38,741 nt of DNA. Origin: Oscillospiraceae bacterium. GTDB lineage: Bacteria > Bacillota > Clostridia > Oscillospirales > Acutalibacteraceae. A program made the position numbers and the translations under genes. The notes under the pieces were generated by a model. The model saw only the letters and a program-made list of their open reading frames with translations, had not been told where the DNA came from and ran no database searches. Shown here piece by piece: positions 11,297 to 20,379 of the stretch (the stretch's first letter is position 1; each line of letters opens with the position of its first letter). The DNA is taken from positions 1 to 38,741 of the forward strand of contig JAQXZE010000056.1 of NCBI GenBank assembly GCA_029227055.1, read 5' to 3'.

Positions 11297-12061
11297 CTAA
11301 CTTTTAATTTTTTTAAGGGCGCATTTTTCAAGTCTTGATACCTGAGCCTGAGATATGCCGATTTCCTCTGAAACCTCCATTTGTGTCTTTCCGCACATAA
11401 ATCTGAGTGAAAGGATTGTCTTTTCCCTATCTGAAAGATTCTTTATTGCCTCTTTTAATGCGATTTCACCAAGAAGATTATTATCGTCGTTATTATCGCC
11501 TACTTGGTCGAGAACATAAATTGTATCCCCGCCGTCTGAATAAATGGGATCATAAAGAGAAATCGGGTCAACAATGCTCTCAAGTGCTATTACCACATCA
11601 GCTCTGGGAAGTGATAACTCTTCTGCTATCTCACTGACAGTAGGCTCTTTCTGATTTTTATTTATCAGCTTTTCTCGCACCTGCATAGCTCTATACGCCG
11701 TATCTTTTATTGAACGACTTACTCTAATAGGGTTATTATCTCTTAGATATCGCCTTATTTCACCTATTATCATTGGCACCGCGTAGGTGGAAAATTTTAC
11801 ATTATGATTCGCGTCAAAATTATCTATCGCTTTCATAAGACCAATACAACCTATCTGAAAGAGGTCGTCTAAATTCTCGCCTCTGCCTGTGAATTTCTGA
11901 ATAACGCTTAAAACAAGCCTTAAATTGCCATTAATGAGGGTTTCTCTGGCTTTAGCGTCTCCTTGTTTCGTAAGGCGCAAAAGTTCTTCCTTTTCGCTCT
12001 CCTTTAAAAGAGGTAATTTAGATGTATCTACGCCGCAAATGCTTACTTTATTATTATACAT
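11297..12061 (-). CDS. sigG: Sporulation sigma factor SigG
   Basis: Late forespore RNA polymerase sigma factor. The N-terminus NKVSICGVDTSKLPLLKE is the hallmark of SigG and separates it from SigF; region 2 (NGNLRLVLSVIQKF, DLFQIGCIGLMKAIDNFD, KFSTYAVPMIIGEIRRYLRD), region 3 and region 4 (GKTQMEVSEEIGISQAQVSR) are complete. The open frame extends to 12115, but the ATG at 12061 is chosen: it has AAAGGGTGG at good distance, gives 254 residues (close to the family's ~260), and the longer version would begin upstream of the apparent SigF promoter. Monocistronic here, not next to sigE. Confidence 0.95.
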   Translation of the reverse strand: MYNNKVSICGVDTSKLPLLKESEKEELLRLTKQGDAKARETLINGNLRLVLSVIQKFTGRGENLDDLFQIGCIGLMKAIDNFDANHNVKFSTYAVPMIIGEIRRYLRDNNPIRVSRSIKDTAYRAMQVREKLINKNQKEPTVSEIAEELSLPRADVVIALESIVDPISLYDPIYSDGGDTIYVLDQVGDNNDDNNLLGEIALKEAIKNLSDREKTILSLRFMCGKTQMEVSEEIGISQAQVSRLEKCALKKIKS

Positions 12062-12081
12062 TTTTTCCACCCTTTCATTAG

Positions 12082-12111
12082 CATTATTGCCACGAAAAGA
12101 TACCGTTAAAC
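12082..12111 (-). promoter_or_regulatory. SigF-type promoter of sigG
   Basis: Minus strand GTTTA (12107-12111), 15-bp spacer, GGCAATAATG (12082-12091). This matches the forespore SigF consensus GYWTA-N15-GGNNANAWTR at every defined position and lies directly before the sigG ribosome binding site. SigF control of sigG is the known arrangement in sporeformers. Confidence 0.75.
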
Positions 12112-12215
12112 CCATATAAAATTTTTTCTTTCGACAAAAAAGACTTGCATTTTCAAGGAGAAGTTGTTAGCGTTTTTTCAAATTTGTAAAAAATCACAAA
12201 ATTTTCCATATTTGT

Positions 12216-12255
12216 GAGAAAATACGAGAAAAAACGAGAAAAAAAGAGTTTAATA
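12216..12255. repeat. Four 10-bp phased A-tract repeats upstream of pot promoter
   Basis: Units GAGAAAATAC, GAGAAAAAAC, GAGAAAAAAA and GAGTTTAATA follow each other with an exact 10-bp period. The A-tracts are in phase with the helix, which should bend the DNA. The array ends about 50 bases upstream of the pot -35 box. A related array occurs before rplM. Confidence 0.75.
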
Positions 12256-12306
12256 TAATTTTTTTATATTTCTAGGTGAAAAATATATTATTTTCGGAAA
12301 TTATCC

Positions 12307-12335
12307 TTGACTTTTCGGCATTTTAGCGTTATATT
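12307..12335 (+). promoter_or_regulatory. SigA-type promoter of potABCD
   Basis: TTGACT (12307-12312), 17-bp spacer, TATATT (12330-12335). Transcription should begin near 12342, leaving a 5' leader of about 208 nt before potA. Confidence 0.8.
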
Positions 12336-12341
12336 TTCTTT

Positions 12342-12549
12342 ATTATAAAATATATAAAAATATTTAACGCATCTGTGTAGAGAGTAATCAAAAACAAACG
12401 GCCGTAGCGTCGGTAAAATTTTAGCTGAACGCTATGAAAAACCCTTTGTTCAGGGCCGTTCAAGAATTGATTACGGGTATCGTATCACAGGGTAAACGTA
12501 AATTTACTTGGTGTCGACACTTGAGTGTTGAACAAAGGGGGATGCTTAA
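12342..12549 (+). ncRNA. Structured 5' leader RNA of potABCD, candidate riboswitch-like element
   Basis: The leader contains a series of nested complementary segments: CTGTG 12373-12377 with CACAG 12486-12490; GTAATCAA 12384-12391 with TTGATTAC 12467-12474; AACGGCC 12397-12403 with GGCCGTT 12454-12460; TAGCGT 12405-12410 with ACGCTA 12429-12434. Then come hairpins GTAAA/TTTAC (12492-12507) and CGACAC/GTGTTG (12515-12530, one G-U). In addition CCCTTTGTTCA (12442-12452), single-stranded inside the second helix, is an exact 11-nt complement of TGAACAAAGGG (12529-12539), which includes the potA ribosome binding site. That pairing makes a pseudoknot and would hide the site. No known riboswitch class was recognised; polyamine sensing is only an inference from the downstream genes. 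Confidence 0.65.
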
Positions 12550-13668
12550 ATGAAAAAAGAGAATATTGTTGAGCTTAAAAATGTATCGGTTTCATTTGAC
12601 GGGGAGAAAATTTTAGATTCCTTAGACCTTTCAATTAAAAATAAGGAATTTATCACCCTTTTAGGTCCATCGGGTTGCGGTAAAACTACAACCCTTCGAA
12701 TCATTGCAGGATTTTTGGACCAGGATGAAGGCGATGTTTTTTTTGAGGGAAATTTACTGAATGGTGTTCCTGCTTACAAAAGGCAGATTAACACCATTTT
12801 TCAGCGTTATGCCCTTTTTCCTCACCTTAATGTTTACGAAAATGTAGCGTTTGGTTTAAGGGTTAAAAAAATGCCTGAAAATGAAATTAAAGAAAAGGTT
12901 ACCGAGATGCTAAGTCTCGTAAACCTTTCAGGCTTTGAAAAGCGCAGTATTGATACCCTTTCGGGCGGTCAACAGCAGCGTGTTGCAATAGCTCGTGCTA
13001 TTGCAAATCATCCTAAGGTATTACTTCTTGACGAACCGCTTGCAGCTCTTGATTTGAAGCTTCGCAAGGATATGCAAAAGGAGCTCAAACGCATTCAGCA
13101 GCAACTTTCAATAACCTTTGTTTTCGTAACACACGACCAAGAAGAAGCTCTTACTATGTCTGACCGTGTTGTTGTTATGGATAACGGCCGTATTCAGCAG
13201 ATAGGCACTCCTCAGGACATCTATAACGAGCCGCAAAACGCCTTTGTTGCCGATTTTATCGGTGAATCAAATATAGTTGACGGTGTTATGCTCAAAGACT
13301 GTCTTGTAGAGTTTTCGGGGCACAAATTTGAATGTCTTGATAAAGGCTTTGAAGAGAACGAAGCTGTTGATGTAGTAGTTAGACCTGAGGATGTTGACAT
13401 TGTTGATGTTAAATCGGGTATGTTAAAGGGTGTTGTTACCTCTGTTTCTTTCCTTGGTGTTCACTATGAAATCATAGTTGATATAGGCGGATTTAAATGG
13501 ATGATACAAACTACCGACGAGCGTTTTGTTGGTGACAAGGTAGGTTTGTTTATCGAGCCTGATGCAATCCATATTATGAAAAAATCCGAATATTCAGGTC
13601 TTTACGGTGATTATAGCAGTTACAGTGAGGAAATGGATCACCTCTCCGATATAATCGAGGAGGAATAA
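12550..13668 (+). CDS. potA: Spermidine/putrescine ABC transporter ATP-binding protein PotA
   Basis: ATPase of the polyamine importer. Walker [10 protein letters not shown] (residues 39-47), Q-loop in [13 protein letters not shown] signature LSGGQQQR, Walker [13 protein letters not shown] and the switch His in THDQEEA are all intact. The C-terminal ~130 residues form a TOBE-type regulatory domain (VVRPEDVDI; the section ending in IEPDAIHIM). 372 residues, normal for PotA. AAAGGGGG precedes ATG and is the strand that can be paired off by the leader. Three bases before potB; the four genes form one operon. Confidence 0.95.
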
Positions 13669-13670
13669 TT

Positions 13671-14498
13671 ATGAAGACTAAATCCTTTGGTAACAAACTT
13701 GTCGCCTCTCCTTACATTGTATGGTCGGCAATTTTTATAATCGTTCCCTTAGTAATAATGGTTTACTATTCCCTTACCGACACAAACGGTGTATTCACCC
13801 TTGCTAATATTGCAGGTATCGGCAAATACAAAAAGGCATTTGCTCTTTCTATCCTCTATGCAATAATTGCAACCGTTATTACCCTTTTACTTGCCTACCC
13901 TATGGCATATTTTATGACCAAAATGAAGGTAAGCTCTCAGCGAATGATTATGCTGATAGTTATGCTTCCTATGTGGATGAACTTCCTTATAAGAACATAT
14001 TCCTGGATAACTATCCTTGCAAATACAGGTATTATTAATACCTTTCTTTCAAAGCTCGGTATAGGACCTGTAAAGCTCATTAATACACCCGGTGCTGTTA
14101 TACTCGGTATGGTTTACGATTTTATTCCTTATATGATTTTGCCGATATATTCGGTTATGTCTAAAATCGATAATTCTTTACTTGAGGCTTCCTCTGACCT
14201 TGGTGCTAACAGTTTTACCCGTCTTAGAAGAGTTATCCTTCCCCTTTCTATGCCGGGGGTAATTTCGGGAATTACTATGGTATTTGTACCCTCGGTCAGC
14301 ACCTTCTATATCTCCCAAAAATTAGGTGGTAACAAAACACTACTTATCGGTGATGCTATTGAATATCTTTTCAATGCAGGTCCCGATTTCTACAACATAG
14401 CATCTACCCTGTCTTTGCTTCTTATGGTGCTTATTCTTATAAGTCTTGCCGTTATGAACCGCTTCTCCGACAGTGAGGAAGGAGGAGTTGTAATATGA
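13671..14498 (+). CDS. potB: Polyamine ABC transporter permease PotB
   Basis: Inner-membrane permease with six helices (275 residues). The cytoplasmic EAA loop that contacts PotA is seen as EASSDLGANSFTRLRRVILP. The N-terminal part ASPYIVWSAIFIIVPLVIMV is typical for PotB. Its stop overlaps the potC start by four bases (ATGA), which couples their translation. Confidence 0.94.
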   Translation: MKTKSFGNKLVASPYIVWSAIFIIVPLVIMVYYSLTDTNGVFTLANIAGIGKYKKAFALSILYAIIATVITLLLAYPMAYFMTKMKVSSQRMIMLIVMLPMWMNFLIRTYSWITILANTGIINTFLSKLGIGPVKLINTPGAVILGMVYDFIPYMILPIYSVMSKIDNSLLEASSDLGANSFTRLRRVILPLSMPGVISGITMVFVPSVSTFYISQKLGGNKTLLIGDAIEYLFNAGPDFYNIASTLSLLLMVLILISLAVMNRFSDSEEGGVVI

Positions 14499-15289
14499 AA
14501 TGGTTATCTAAACTTTATGTTTGCTTAATTATTTTCTTCCTATATGCTCCTGTGGCAGTTATGGTGCTATTCTCCTTTAACTCTGCGGAAAGCGTTTGGG
14601 TTTTTGAAGGCTTTTCTTTAGATTGGTATAAAAGTCTGCTTTTTGATGCAACTATGCTTAACGCATTAAAGCACACCCTGATAATTGCGGTTTTATCTGC
14701 AATTATTTCAACTGTTTTGGGCACCGCTGCTGCAGTAGGTATAGAAGCTCTTAAAAACCGTATTGCTAAAAAGGCGGTTATGACTGTAACAAACATTCCG
14801 ATGATGAATGCCGATATAGTTACAGGTATTTCGCTTATGCTTTTGTTTGTATTTATAGGAAAGCTTATAGGTCTCCACGAATCCCTCGGATTTTTTACAG
14901 TCCTTATAGCCCACATAACCTTTAATCTTCCCTATGTAATACTTTCGGTTTTGCCAAAATTAAAGCAAACCGATTCACATTTACCCGAAGCTGCTCTTGA
15001 CCTTGGTTGCACACCTATTCAGGCGTTTTTTAAGGTTGTTTTACCCTCAATTTCAACGGGTATCGCAACGGGTATGATAATGGCTTTCACACTTTCACTT
15101 GATGACTTTGTAATAAGCTATTTTACCTGCGGTCATTATCAGACATTACCTATTGTAATTTACAATATGACCAAAAAGACGGTAACTCCTGACACCTACG
15201 CACTTTCAACCCTTATTTTTGCATCTGTTTTCCTACTGTTAGTGCTTTATAACGCTTTACAGACCAAAGCAGAAAAAAGGAGGGGCTGA
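14495..15289 (+). CDS. potC: Polyamine ABC transporter permease PotC
   Basis: Second permease of the importer, 264 residues and six helices. EAA loop: EAALDLGCTPIQAFFKVVLP; family motif FTLSLDDFVISYFTCG near the C-terminus. Begins inside the last codons of potB with GGAGGAG as ribosome binding site. Ends in TGA, which shows TGA works as a stop in this genome. Confidence 0.94.
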   Translation: MKWLSKLYVCLIIFFLYAPVAVMVLFSFNSAESVWVFEGFSLDWYKSLLFDATMLNALKHTLIIAVLSAIISTVLGTAAAVGIEALKNRIAKKAVMTVTNIPMMNADIVTGISLMLLFVFIGKLIGLHESLGFFTVLIAHITFNLPYVILSVLPKLKQTDSHLPEAALDLGCTPIQAFFKVVLPSISTGIATGMIMAFTLSLDDFVISYFTCGHYQTLPIVIYNMTKKTVTPDTYALSTLIFASVFLLLVLYNALQTKAEKRRG

Positions 15290-15290
15290 T

Positions 15291-16385
15291 ATGAAAAGGA
15301 TATTATCATTACTTTTAATTTTAGCCCTATGTATCAGTCTTTCGGGTTGCGGCTATGAATATGCAGAGCTTGAGCTTGAAGGCGACTACAGCGGTCTTGA
15401 GGGTACTGTGCTTAATGTTTATAATTGGGGTGAATATATTTCCGAAGGCTCAGATGACTGTATTGATACCAATTTAGAATTTGAGCGTATTACGGGTATA
15501 AAGGTAAATTATACAACCTTTGACAGTAATGAGGTTATGTATTCTCAGATTAAAAGCGGCGGCGTTACATTTGACATTGTAATTCCCTCTGATTATATGA
15601 TTGAGCGCCTTAAAAACGAAAATATGCTAAGGAAAATCGATGTATCATCCCTTAAAAATTATCATTACATTGATGAAGCATATAAAAATCTTTATTTTGA
15701 CCCCAATAACGAGTACTCTGTCCCCTACAATGTGGGAATGGTTGGTGTTATCTATAACCGCCGTCTTATCGGAGAGCCTGAGCATTCTTGGAAAGCTCTT
15801 TGGGATAAAAAATATAAAGATATGTCCCTTAATTTCAGCAATCCTAGAGACGCTTTTATGACGGCTCAGTTTATTCTCGGCATTGATCTTAACACTACCA
15901 AAAAGGCAGAATGGGAAGCCGCGGCAGAGTTACTTAAAAAACAAAAGAAATATCTTCAGTCCTATGTAATGGATGAAATTTACGGAAAAATGGAAACGGG
16001 AGAAGCCGCTATCGGTCCATACTATGCGGGTGATTTTCTTACAATGCAGGAAAACAACGAGGATTTGGACTTCTTCTATCCAAAAGAGGGTACAAATATC
16101 TTTGTTGACTCCATCTGTATTCCATCAACCTCTAAAAATTATGAGGCGGCAATGCTTTATATTGACTTTTTGTTAGAGCCCGACATAGCTCTCGCAAACG
16201 CAGAATATATAGGATATGCAAGTCCTCATACAGCGGTATTACAAAATCCCGATTATTACTATTATCAGAATAAAATTCTATATCCTGATAAAGAAGATAT
16301 GCCGAAAGTTCAGTACTATCACGATATGGATTCTAAAACCCGTCTTATTTATGAAAATCTTTGGATTGATGTAAAATTACATTAA
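15291..16385 (+). CDS. potD: Polyamine-binding lipoprotein PotD
   Basis: Extracellular substrate-binding component anchored by lipid: signal peptide with lipobox LSGC (Cys about residue 20), then a PotD/PotF-type bacterial solute-binding fold. Recognisable family parts are LNVYNWGEYI, TFDSNEVMYSQI, FDIVIPSDYMIERL and VPYNVGMVGVIYN. Acidic and aromatic residues expected to contact the amines (for example Trp and Glu in NWGEYI) are present. 364 residues, usual length. It starts one base after the potC stop with AGGAGGGG; followed by a strong terminator. Spermidine versus putrescine preference cannot be decided here. Confidence 0.94.
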   Translation: MKRILSLLLILALCISLSGCGYEYAELELEGDYSGLEGTVLNVYNWGEYISEGSDDCIDTNLEFERITGIKVNYTTFDSNEVMYSQIKSGGVTFDIVIPSDYMIERLKNENMLRKIDVSSLKNYHYIDEAYKNLYFDPNNEYSVPYNVGMVGVIYNRRLIGEPEHSWKALWDKKYKDMSLNFSNPRDAFMTAQFILGIDLNTTKKAEWEAAAELLKKQKKYLQSYVMDEIYGKMETGEAAIGPYYAGDFLTMQENNEDLDFFYPKEGTNIFVDSICIPSTSKNYEAAMLYIDFLLEPDIALANAEYIGYASPHTAVLQNPDYYYYQNKILYPDKEDMPKVQYYHDMDSKTRLIYENLWIDVKLH

Positions 16386-16393
16386 AAATATTT

Positions 16394-16436
16394 AGCGGTC
16401 TTGAATTTTTTGAAATTTAAGACCGCTTTTTTCTTT
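16394..16436 (+). terminator. Terminator after potD
   Basis: AGCGGTCTT (16394-16402) pairs with AAGACCGCT (16419-16427), followed by a run of T. Confidence 0.88.
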
Positions 16437-16443
16437 TATTCAC

Positions 16444-16471
16444 TTTACTTTTTGGAAAATTATGATAAAAT
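16444..16471 (+). promoter_or_regulatory. Possible promoter of the sodium-pump gene pair
   Basis: TTTACT (16444-16449), 16-bp spacer, TAAAAT (16466-16471), about 40 bases before the chosen start. Confidence 0.45.
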
Positions 16472-16511
16472 AGATGTGTTTGAAAAAGAATATTTTTTCG
16501 GAGGTATTAAA

Positions 16512-17606
16512 TTGGAAGTTCTGTATCAAAATTTACTTACTATCAGTTGGCGCGAAGTGGTTATGTGGGTTATCGGCGCCGTGCTCATTTATCTTGCTAT
16601 TAAGAAGAAAATGGAGCCTTCTTTGCTTTTACCTATGGGATTCGGTGCTATCCTTATAAACCTTCCAAATTCAGGTGCTAAAGCAGTTATAGACCACCTT
16701 TTCAAAATCGGTATTGACAGTCATGAGTTATTCCCGTTAATTCTTTTTATCGGTATCGGCGCAATGATTGATTTTGAGCCATTACTTACAAATCCTAAGC
16801 TTATGATTTTCGGTGCGGCTGCACAGTTTGGTATATTCTTTACTATGTGTTTAGCTTCCCTTTTCGGCTTCGAGCTTCACGATGCGGCATCTGTTGCTAT
16901 TATAGGCGCGGCGGACGGTCCTACCTCGATTTTCGTAGCTAACACATTAAAATCAAATTATACTGCCGCTATAATGGTTGCTGCTTACTCTTATATGGCG
17001 CTTGTTCCAATGGTACAGCCACCTATCATCAAGCTCTGCACCACCAAAAAAGAGCGTCTTATCAGAATGAACTATACTGGCAAAAAGGTATCAAAGCTTA
17101 CAAAAATTCTCTTCCCCATTGTTGTTACAATTGTAGTTGGATTAGTAGCTCCTGACGCTGTTGCTCTTATCGGTTTCTTAATGTTCGGTAACCTTATTAG
17201 AGAATGTGGCGTTCTTGATTCTTTATCTGAGACTGCACAAAAGGTACTCGCAAACCTTATAACCATATTCTTAGGTATCACAATAGCTTCCAGAATGACT
17301 GCAAACGAATTCTTACAGCTTGAAACCCTTCTTATTATGGGACTCGGTCTTGTAGCGTTTATATTTGATACATTCGGCGGCGTTATGATTGCCAAGATTA
17401 TTAACCTCTTTACGAAGAACAAAATCAATCCTATGATAGGTGCTGCCGGTATTTCGGCTTTCCCGATGTCTGCCCGAGTTGTAAACAAGCTCGGTCTTGA
17501 AGAAGATAATCAAAACTTCTTACTTATGCACGCTGTAGGTGTTAATGTTTCAGGACAAATCGCTTCGGTAATTGCAGGCGGTTTAATCTTAGCATTAGTT
17601 AGATAG
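16512..17606 (+). CDS. Na+-translocating decarboxylase beta subunit
   Basis: Membrane subunit of the OadB/GcdB/MmdB family, which couples decarboxylation of a carboxybiotin carrier to Na+ export. Family signatures: LLPMGFGAILINLP, GIGAMIDFEPLLTNP, the central AIIGAADGPTSIFVA, and MIGAAGISAFPMSARVV with LMHAVGVNVSGQIASVIA at the end. The open frame extends back to 16401 through the potD terminator; the TTG at 16512 with GGAGG at good spacing is the real start, giving 364 residues as usual. Next comes a tiny gamma-like gene, but no alpha (carboxyltransferase) or biotin carrier gene is nearby, so the substrate is unknown. Confidence 0.9.
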   Translation: MEVLYQNLLTISWREVVMWVIGAVLIYLAIKKKMEPSLLLPMGFGAILINLPNSGAKAVIDHLFKIGIDSHELFPLILFIGIGAMIDFEPLLTNPKLMIFGAAAQFGIFFTMCLASLFGFELHDAASVAIIGAADGPTSIFVANTLKSNYTAAIMVAAYSYMALVPMVQPPIIKLCTTKKERLIRMNYTGKKVSKLTKILFPIVVTIVVGLVAPDAVALIGFLMFGNLIRECGVLDSLSETAQKVLANLITIFLGITIASRMTANEFLQLETLLIMGLGLVAFIFDTFGGVMIAKIINLFTKNKINPMIGAAGISAFPMSARVVNKLGLEEDNQNFLLMHAVGVNVSGQIASVIAGGLILALVR

Positions 17607-20303: not shown

Positions 20304-20379
20304 TGGAGCTGAAGATGGGACTTGAACCCACGACCTGCTGATTACGAATCAGCTGCTCTACCAACTGAGCCACTCCAGC
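20304..20379 (-). tRNA. tRNA-Thr (anticodon CGT)
   Basis: 76 nt cloverleaf on the minus strand: acceptor GCTGGAG/CTTCAGC, D arm GCTC...GAGC, anticodon stem GCTGA/TCAGC around loop TTCGTAA (anticodon CGT, reads ACG), T arm with GGTTCAAGTCC, discriminator T and encoded CCA. Confidence 0.96.

Follow-up and report, generated by a model that had tools for sequence, protein, structure and literature searches.

A conserved pseudoknotted leader RNA over the potA ribosome binding site in Acutalibacteraceae, a candidate translational riboswitch for polyamine import

The potABCD operon in the 38,741-nt stretch of DNA analyzed here (the window) is preceded by a roughly 190-nt conserved RNA (12363-12550), in which the Shine-Dalgarno sequence of potA forms one strand of a conserved pseudoknot, as judged from pairing, covariation, folding and a comparison with relatives that lost the element. 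We regard it as virtually certain that this is a conserved cis-regulatory RNA with a pseudoknot at the ribosome site, and both the fold and the pairing of the ribosome site are well supported. Our preferred, somewhat probable reading is that the leader acts as a translational OFF riboswitch for polyamine import, which would bind its ligand and switch in response.

The potABCD locus

The promoter-like site and the genes of the operon are arranged as follows:

12307..12335, + strand: promoter-like TTGACT, 17-nt spacer and TATATT (promoter scan)
12550..13668, + strand: potA, polyamine ABC transporter ATPase, above the curated cut-offs of NF043075 and TIGR01187
13671..14498, + strand: potB, permease; best NCBIfam match PotB, under its equivalog cut-off
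14495..15289, + strand: potC, permease; best NCBIfam matches spermidine/putrescine permeases, under cut-off
15291..16385, + strand: potD, substrate-binding protein; solved relatives 4gl0, 4eqb and 1pot; PotD model best, under cut-off

As PotB, PotC and PotD score under the equivalog cut-offs, the substrate of the importer is not certain. The best solved relatives of PotD are Lmo0810 (4gl0, the top match) and then spermidine/putrescine-binding proteins, and polyamine, spermidine or putrescine is named in 21 of the 24 solved relatives listed, the exceptions being Lmo0810, 6nlp and 1y4t. On the 5' side of the operon lies a divergent gene for a SigG-type sporulation sigma factor (11297-12115) and on the 3' side a gene for the beta subunit of a sodium-pumping decarboxylase (16401-17606); a tRNA gene is located on the minus strand at 20307-20379.

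The scanned region contained four promoter-like sites versus 2.4 in shuffled sequences, which makes the promoter-like site weak evidence when taken alone. A loose TTGA/TAxxxT pattern was found upstream in 60 of the 72 relatives in which the script had located the core; this count has no shuffled counterpart, the script missed the window's own copy, and 5 of 77 leaders without a located core were left out. A terminator scan, confined to the window, gave no terminator-like site in 12116-12700, so that an intrinsic terminator platform was rejected there. Based on the promoter-like site and the empty terminator scan, transcription probably begins some 20 nt 5' of the element.

Distribution of the leader among relatives

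Of 60 genomes covered by a nucleotide search, 23 contain the leader; these belong without exception to the 37 members of the genus (own genome included), and none is among the 23 others. It precedes potA in 29 of the 30 loci, and L007 ends at a contig edge. Covariance models were then built from 22 leaders (R1), 31 leaders (R2) and 70 cores (R3). R1 matched 32 of 200 genomes of the family and 5 of 394 genomes of the order, four of the latter belonging to the own genus and one being judged chance. The initial annotation had suggested a covariance search with a model made from relatives; performed with R2, it gave matches in 51 of the 200 family genomes and 34 of 135 genera, in all 51 cases directly before potA. 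At the level of the class, R2 matched 7 of 391 genomes (five of the own family, one of family f39 and one of family f77) and R3 matched 9 of 321, namely five of the own family, one of f39 and two of f77, all before potA, and one of f38 without potA. In the phylum, R3 matched 1 of 329 genomes, which was the own one.

Each of these R2 places is situated directly before a potA homologue, even at E = 8e-4, with the match at L048 covering only 42 residues. Since the models stop near the start codon, the downstream potA is an independent check of these matches. L062 (R1, E 4.8e-4) and L213 (R3, E 8e-5) were not accepted as members and were judged chance matches, with no potA after them. A 20-nt core pattern searched over the genome collection yielded 79 stretches, 73 of which match R2 at E <= 2.3e-5. 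In 72 of the 79, potA starts on the same strand 81-239 nt from the start of the pattern, and in one R2-matching stretch the sequence ends before any potA; six were judged chance (L119, L124, L130, L157, L164 and L170). By title, the hosts of the pattern include Caproiciproducens, Anaeromassilibacillus and Faecalispora. A looser pattern occurred in 30 viral stretches, none of which has CCGCAAAGG within 250 nt. All accepted matches precede one type of operon, the polyamine-type pot operon, and therefore no second gene narrows down the ligand.

Three alignments were used in the following. A1 holds 22 of the 23 leaders from the nucleotide search (L015 was omitted as close to L013), and A4 holds 31 of the 53 A2 leaders, with long-loop and near-duplicate ones omitted. 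A6 comprises 70 cores: a filter on length and similarity was passed by 76 of 120 unique leaders, six of which (L048, L060, L091, L095, L109 and L138) were left out.

Extent and architecture of the RNA

The conserved parts of the leader and the observations behind them are:

12363..12373, + strand: P1 5' strand (UUUAA, bulged C, GCAUC); pairing in A4 and flank extension test
12373..12377, + strand: P2 5' strand CUGUG, which might alternatively pair with CACAG; sequence, with C12373 common to P1
12384..12390, + strand: P3 5' strand GUAAUCA; two-sided changes in A4
12397..12403, + strand: P4 5' strand AACGGCC; two-sided changes in A4 and A6
12404..12410, + strand: P5 5' strand GUAGCGU; two-sided changes at 7 of 8 aligned pairs, A4 and A6
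12429..12435, + strand: P5 3' strand ACGCUAU; A4 and A6
12437..12441, + strand: AAAAA linker from P5 to the pseudoknot strand; its columns invariant or almost so in A6 (n = 70)
12442..12452, + strand: pseudoknot 5' strand CCCUUUGUUCA, anti-Shine-Dalgarno-like; paired in 98.1% of A6 cells, three pairs with two-sided changes
12454..12460, + strand: P4 3' strand GGCCGUU; A4 and A6
12468..12474, + strand: P3 3' strand UGAUUAC; A4
12475..12482, + strand: P6 5' strand GGGUAUCG, partner CGACACU; two-sided changes at two A1 pairs
12486..12490, + strand: CACAG, which could pair with the P2 5' strand or inside the P6 hairpin; sequence and predicted fold
12487..12514, + strand: P6 inner hairpin, its length varying among relatives; predicted fold
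12515..12521, + strand: CGACACU, either P6 3' strand or P7 5' strand; A1 and predicted fold
12524..12530, + strand: P7 3' strand AGUGUUG, optional; absent from several relatives
12529..12539, + strand: pseudoknot 3' strand UGAACAAAGGG, covering the Shine-Dalgarno; exact complement of 12442-12452 and covariation
12534..12541, + strand: potA Shine-Dalgarno AAAGGGGG; sequence and spacing to the AUG at 12550
12541..12550, + strand: P1 3' strand GAUGC and UUAAA, up to the A of the AUG; A4 and flank extension test

The initial annotation had placed the leader at 12373-12549. The fold is indeed located there, and the folding energy of this span (z = -3.49) was equalled by only 1 of 200 shuffles, whereas its 5' start lay about 10 nt too far 3' because the closing helix P1 had been missed; the conserved RNA is therefore larger than first drawn. 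The four nested helices of that description were recovered as P3, P4, P5 and, as a fourth, a short upper part of P5 in the predicted fold.

Some relatives depart from this layout. In L085 (G111), GCGAAAAACCCTTTG is duplicated in tandem around the 5' knot strand, which therefore leaves two candidate 5' knot strands. In L077/L209 and L078/L211 (f39, f77) and in L084 and L090 (own family), the 5' GCAUCUGUGC is found about 90-140 nt upstream of the place predicted by the model, a shift that would allow an additional domain to lie between P1 and P4.

Covariation in the arm and in the closing helix

A search for compensatory changes among homologous leaders, the kind of evidence that the initial annotation had named for its helices and its pseudoknot pairing, revealed two-sided changes both in the helices and in the knot. 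Over the 34 pairs of P1, P3, P4, P5 and the knot in A4, 92.0% of the cells are paired versus 36.8-49.3% when the strands are slid by 1-3 columns, and two-sided changes occur at 19 pairs, a number matched by none of 500 shuffles. In A6, where 23 pairs from P4, P5 and the knot were counted, 92.9% of the cells are paired versus 39.0-50.9% after sliding; the number of two-sided pairs is here less extreme, being reached by 8 of 500 shuffles, whereas the paired cells and the covariation score were reached by none. P3 shows two-sided changes at 7 of its 8 aligned pairs in A4 with 74.1% of the cells paired, a value that is low partly due to the poor alignment in this part. RNAalifold on A1 drew the knot in place of P3 and P4, because this program cannot represent the two together.

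The core of P1, GCAUC/GAUGC, is paired in 98.7% of A4 cells and nearly invariant, and for this reason the interior of the helix contributes little covariation. The outward extension of P1, by contrast, varies on both sides in a coordinated manner, for example as UUUAA/UUAAA or AAA/UUU. For 66 distinct flank pairs its length is 2.48 pairs versus 1.37 +/- 0.14 with the partners re-dealt, and none of 3000 re-dealings was as high. For this test, 19 of the 120 leaders were dropped as having no recognised P1. As P1 spans the region between the ribosome site and the AUG, the fold covers both.

A count by script speaks against P1: 10 of the 120 unique leaders are without the 5' GCAUY and 12 without the 3' GRUGC, but only 4 are without both. 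GCAUC pairs with GAUGU in L008, L020, L023, L111 and L128, and L117 is cut at the contig start. GAUGC is lost in six loci with five distinct cores (L098, L102, L126, L133, L136 and L159), in which GCAUC was also absent upstream by eye. This subgroup without P1 seems to bear another 5' hairpin, and CGCAG is changed to CGUAG in five of its six members.

A pseudoknot pairs with the ribosome binding site of potA

The exact 11-nt complementarity between 12442-12452 and 12529-12539, including the potA Shine-Dalgarno, had been the central observation of the initial annotation and was confirmed in the sequence. None of 3000 dinucleotide shuffles of 12340-12513 contained an 11-nt complement to 12529-12541, the longest being 9 nt, which rules out chance complementarity as the source of the knot. 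The proposed geometry, with one strand inside the nested helices and the other outside, also holds: nested helices and knot are compatible, and a constrained fold keeps P1, P3, P4, P5 and the hairpin 12515-12530.

Among the leaders compared, the core of the knot (CUUUG/CAAAG) is invariant, and the covariation of the knot is therefore confined to its three distal pairs. These read CGG/CCG in 90 of 118 leaders, UUC/GAA in 10 and UCA/UGA in another 10; the other 8 leaders carry five imperfect or wobble types of knot end. This count started from 164 loci, reduced to 120 unique leaders and then to 118, as the rule for the 5' strand missed L091 and L092, which both read CCUUUGCG. When each type of knot end is counted once, 20 of 24 positions pair versus 12.6 after shuffling, and 22 of 5000 shuffles were as good. 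The outermost distal pair is unpaired, as aligned, in 11 of 69 A6 sequences. Covariation of the knot itself is clear, although it comes from few independent events.

In the pseudoknot-free fold of the window leader (-60.1 kcal/mol), the ribosome site is enclosed in the knot helix. When the 5' knot strand is constrained to stay unpaired, P1, P3, P4, P5 and P7 fold (-54.4 kcal/mol) and the ribosome site is partly open, the predicted unpaired probabilities for 12533-12541 being 0.60, 0.77, 0.97, 0.46, 0.87, 0.21, 0.90, 0.13 and 0.04. The knot duplex was calculated at -15.6 kcal/mol versus -11.2 kcal/mol for an assumed 16S tail.

Alternative pairings

The competing hairpin 12515-12530 (P7) of the initial annotation is present and overlaps the knot by 12529-12530 only, but it did not stand as a general switch, because it is absent from several relatives (L044, L049, L055, L056 and L059). 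Its strand CGACACU is also used by P6 (GGUAUCG/CGACACU), for which two-sided changes occur at the A1 pairs 138-227 and 146-220, in one and three sequences, respectively. A broad script detected a CGRCAC-like partner in 44 of 45 leaders of the UAUCG type and GAAAC in 10 of 11 of the GGUUUC type.

For P2 (CUGUG/CRCAG), 41 leaders have both strands, 43 have neither, and 19 and 2 are mixed, in a co-occurrence count in which relatedness and a permissive regular expression act as confounders, and from which rows without core or P1 and repeats were dropped. The P2 pairing is only suggestive, and a competition between P2 and P6 can be drawn on paper only. The alternative state is not defined by covariation: P7 is optional, and P2 against P6 is no more than suggestive.

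potA leaders without the element

From the genomes without a match to the element in the nucleotide search or with R1 and R2 we chose 27, of which 17 have a potA at E <= 1e-100 that is 56-85% identical. None of these 17 potA leaders contains the element, and none carries CAAAGG within the 260 nt before potA. Many potA-bearing relatives are accordingly without the element, a point against the riboswitch reading. Since the motif is missing from all 17, it seems, as far as sequence comparison can tell, to be kept in the other leaders for its partner and not as ribosome site as such. Two leaders from the same genus, L214 (13.9 bits, E 0.043 with R3) and L215 (17.1 bits, E 0.0067), appear decayed: they keep GCAUC, GGGGAUGC and a piece of P4 or P6, and both knot strands are gone.

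Comparison with known regulatory RNAs

The initial annotation knew of no named riboswitch class with this layout before pot genes, in agreement with the comparison to Rfam 15, which gave no matching family. At the gathering threshold, the only match in the whole window was the tRNA at 20307-20379; at E up to 5, the region 12250-12620 matched KRAS_3UTR and snoZ267, the latter inside the leader, both far below gathering. In 31 chosen relatives (19 + 12) searched at E up to 1, nothing fell inside a leader and three weak matches were located elsewhere. Membership of an Rfam 15 family was therefore rejected for the window leader and for these relatives.

Polyamine riboswitches have long been sought, and one validated class is reported by Salvail et al. 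(2023, PMC10853860): a variant of SAM-I, with 13 examples described there, which binds spermidine and controls transcription termination before polyamine biosynthesis genes. The leader described here resembles this class, as presented in that paper, in its association with Gram-positive polyamine genes and in polyamine OFF control, proposed here and shown there (PMC10853860). It differs from the published description in its fold, in the importer gene and in having no terminator-like site in the window (PMC10853860). A scan with the general Rfam family model gave no SAM-I match, and the covariation-supported fold is different.

Other structured RNAs near polyamine genes share less with it. The potC motif (RF01751), marine only according to the table of Weinberg et al. 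(2010, PMC2864571), is alike in the name of a polyamine-transport gene, and no match to it appeared in our Rfam scans, which included every Rfam family. The potE (WRC-18-1) motif is described as a weakly supported structure of Veillonella and environmental samples that lies some 200 nt away from its gene, and the odc1 motif as alphaproteobacterial, located before a presumed ornithine decarboxylase gene and with a proposed pseudoknot (PMC8632094). Both are alike in being structured leaders of polyamine genes and are set apart here by the anatomy and hosts given in that description only (PMC8632094). Among the matches listed in our literature search, which left preprints and most subscription papers outside, no potABCD leader of this kind was found.

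With regard to the mechanism, there are precedents with other ligands. In preQ1, SAM-II and SAM-V riboswitches the ribosome site is itself a strand of the pseudoknot of the aptamer. The potA leader differs from these in the missing Rfam match, the larger multi-helix arm, the closing helix P1 across the start region and the gene that it precedes. We rate it as structurally a new class, within a kind of regulator that is already known.

A model for the leader and its alternatives

In the model that we favour, P3, P4 and P5 make up one arm of the leader RNA, and a bulged stretch that separates P5 from the 3' strand of P4 (AAAAA-CCCUUUG...) pairs with the Shine-Dalgarno region CAAAGGG to create the pseudoknot, with P1 closing the whole element across the spacer between ribosome site and AUG. 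The helices, the knot and its location on the ribosome site are shown by the comparison of relatives. Plentiful internal polyamine, for example spermidine or putrescine, may stabilise this conserved fold, so that the ribosome site and the start region would be hidden and translation of the importer would drop; with scarce ligand the knot would open and PotABCD would be made. We assign the ligand-stabilised fold to the OFF state since the ribosome site is hidden in the fold that is conserved, and OFF control would fit an importer whose substrate is abundant. Direct sensing of a ligand by the leader appears likely to us, and the exclusive gene association makes a polyamine the moderately probable ligand.

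The same mechanics with another ligand, such as SAM, arginine, ornithine or another imported cation, seem unlikely. A gene association alone names no ligand, and of the transporter proteins PotA alone is firmly assigned; on the other hand, the solved relatives of PotD are mostly named as polyamine proteins, and every accepted association involves one and the same polyamine-type operon. Somewhat less likely still is an RNA-binding protein, either a Pot protein acting autogenously or a regulator devoted to this task, that captures the leader in its knotted fold with the ribosome site blocked. Long conserved leaders of such size also serve as protein targets, and a single associated operon is what would be expected of an autogenous leader. 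Against this, no regulator gene was noted beside the operon within the window, and the near-invariant unpaired A-rich linker by the knot is no less in keeping with an aptamer for a small ligand.

A stability switch with no specific pocket, in which the charge of polyamines or Mg2+ compacts the knot or temperature melts it, is improbable in our view. Polyamines bind RNA generally, as stated in the introduction of Salvail et al. (PMC10853860), and the knot helix is strong; however, the conserved unpaired residues and an arm architecture maintained in three families exceed the needs of a charge sensor. The least credible reading is a static structure that tunes translation and is never switched. 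It would account for the lack of a defined alternative state and for the optional competing hairpin, but a permanently hidden ribosome site would presumably be costly to conserve through such divergence, and in related genomes potA is preceded by other leaders that do not contain the element. Compared with these alternatives, the polyamine-responsive OFF riboswitch remains our preferred reading, and we see about even chances that the leader represents a new candidate class which, by direct sensing of polyamine, turns off translation of the importer with a fold unrelated to the SAM-I-type spermidine riboswitch.

Implications for polyamine uptake

A match to the spermidine synthase model above its cut-off was absent in 24 of 25 genomes of the same genus, including the own genome, whose best match (8.1e-4) stays under the cut-off; G023 is over it at 3.3e-13. 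In other families of the order, 8 of 15 genomes have a spermidine synthase over the cut-off. Due to the missing matches in the genus, polyamine import may matter to these bacteria. If the model is true, sensing of polyamines by RNA would have arisen on at least two occasions, one concerned with synthesis and the other with uptake, as the fold is unrelated to that of the known spermidine riboswitch. With a second candidate that has its own architecture, strong covariation and a single, exclusive gene context, the direct sensing of polyamines by RNA becomes accessible to experiment immediately, also with the leaders of the cultured hosts Caproiciproducens and Faecalispora. Furthermore, RNA control would be extended from polyamine synthesis to polyamine uptake, in a genus mostly without a recognisable spermidine synthase.
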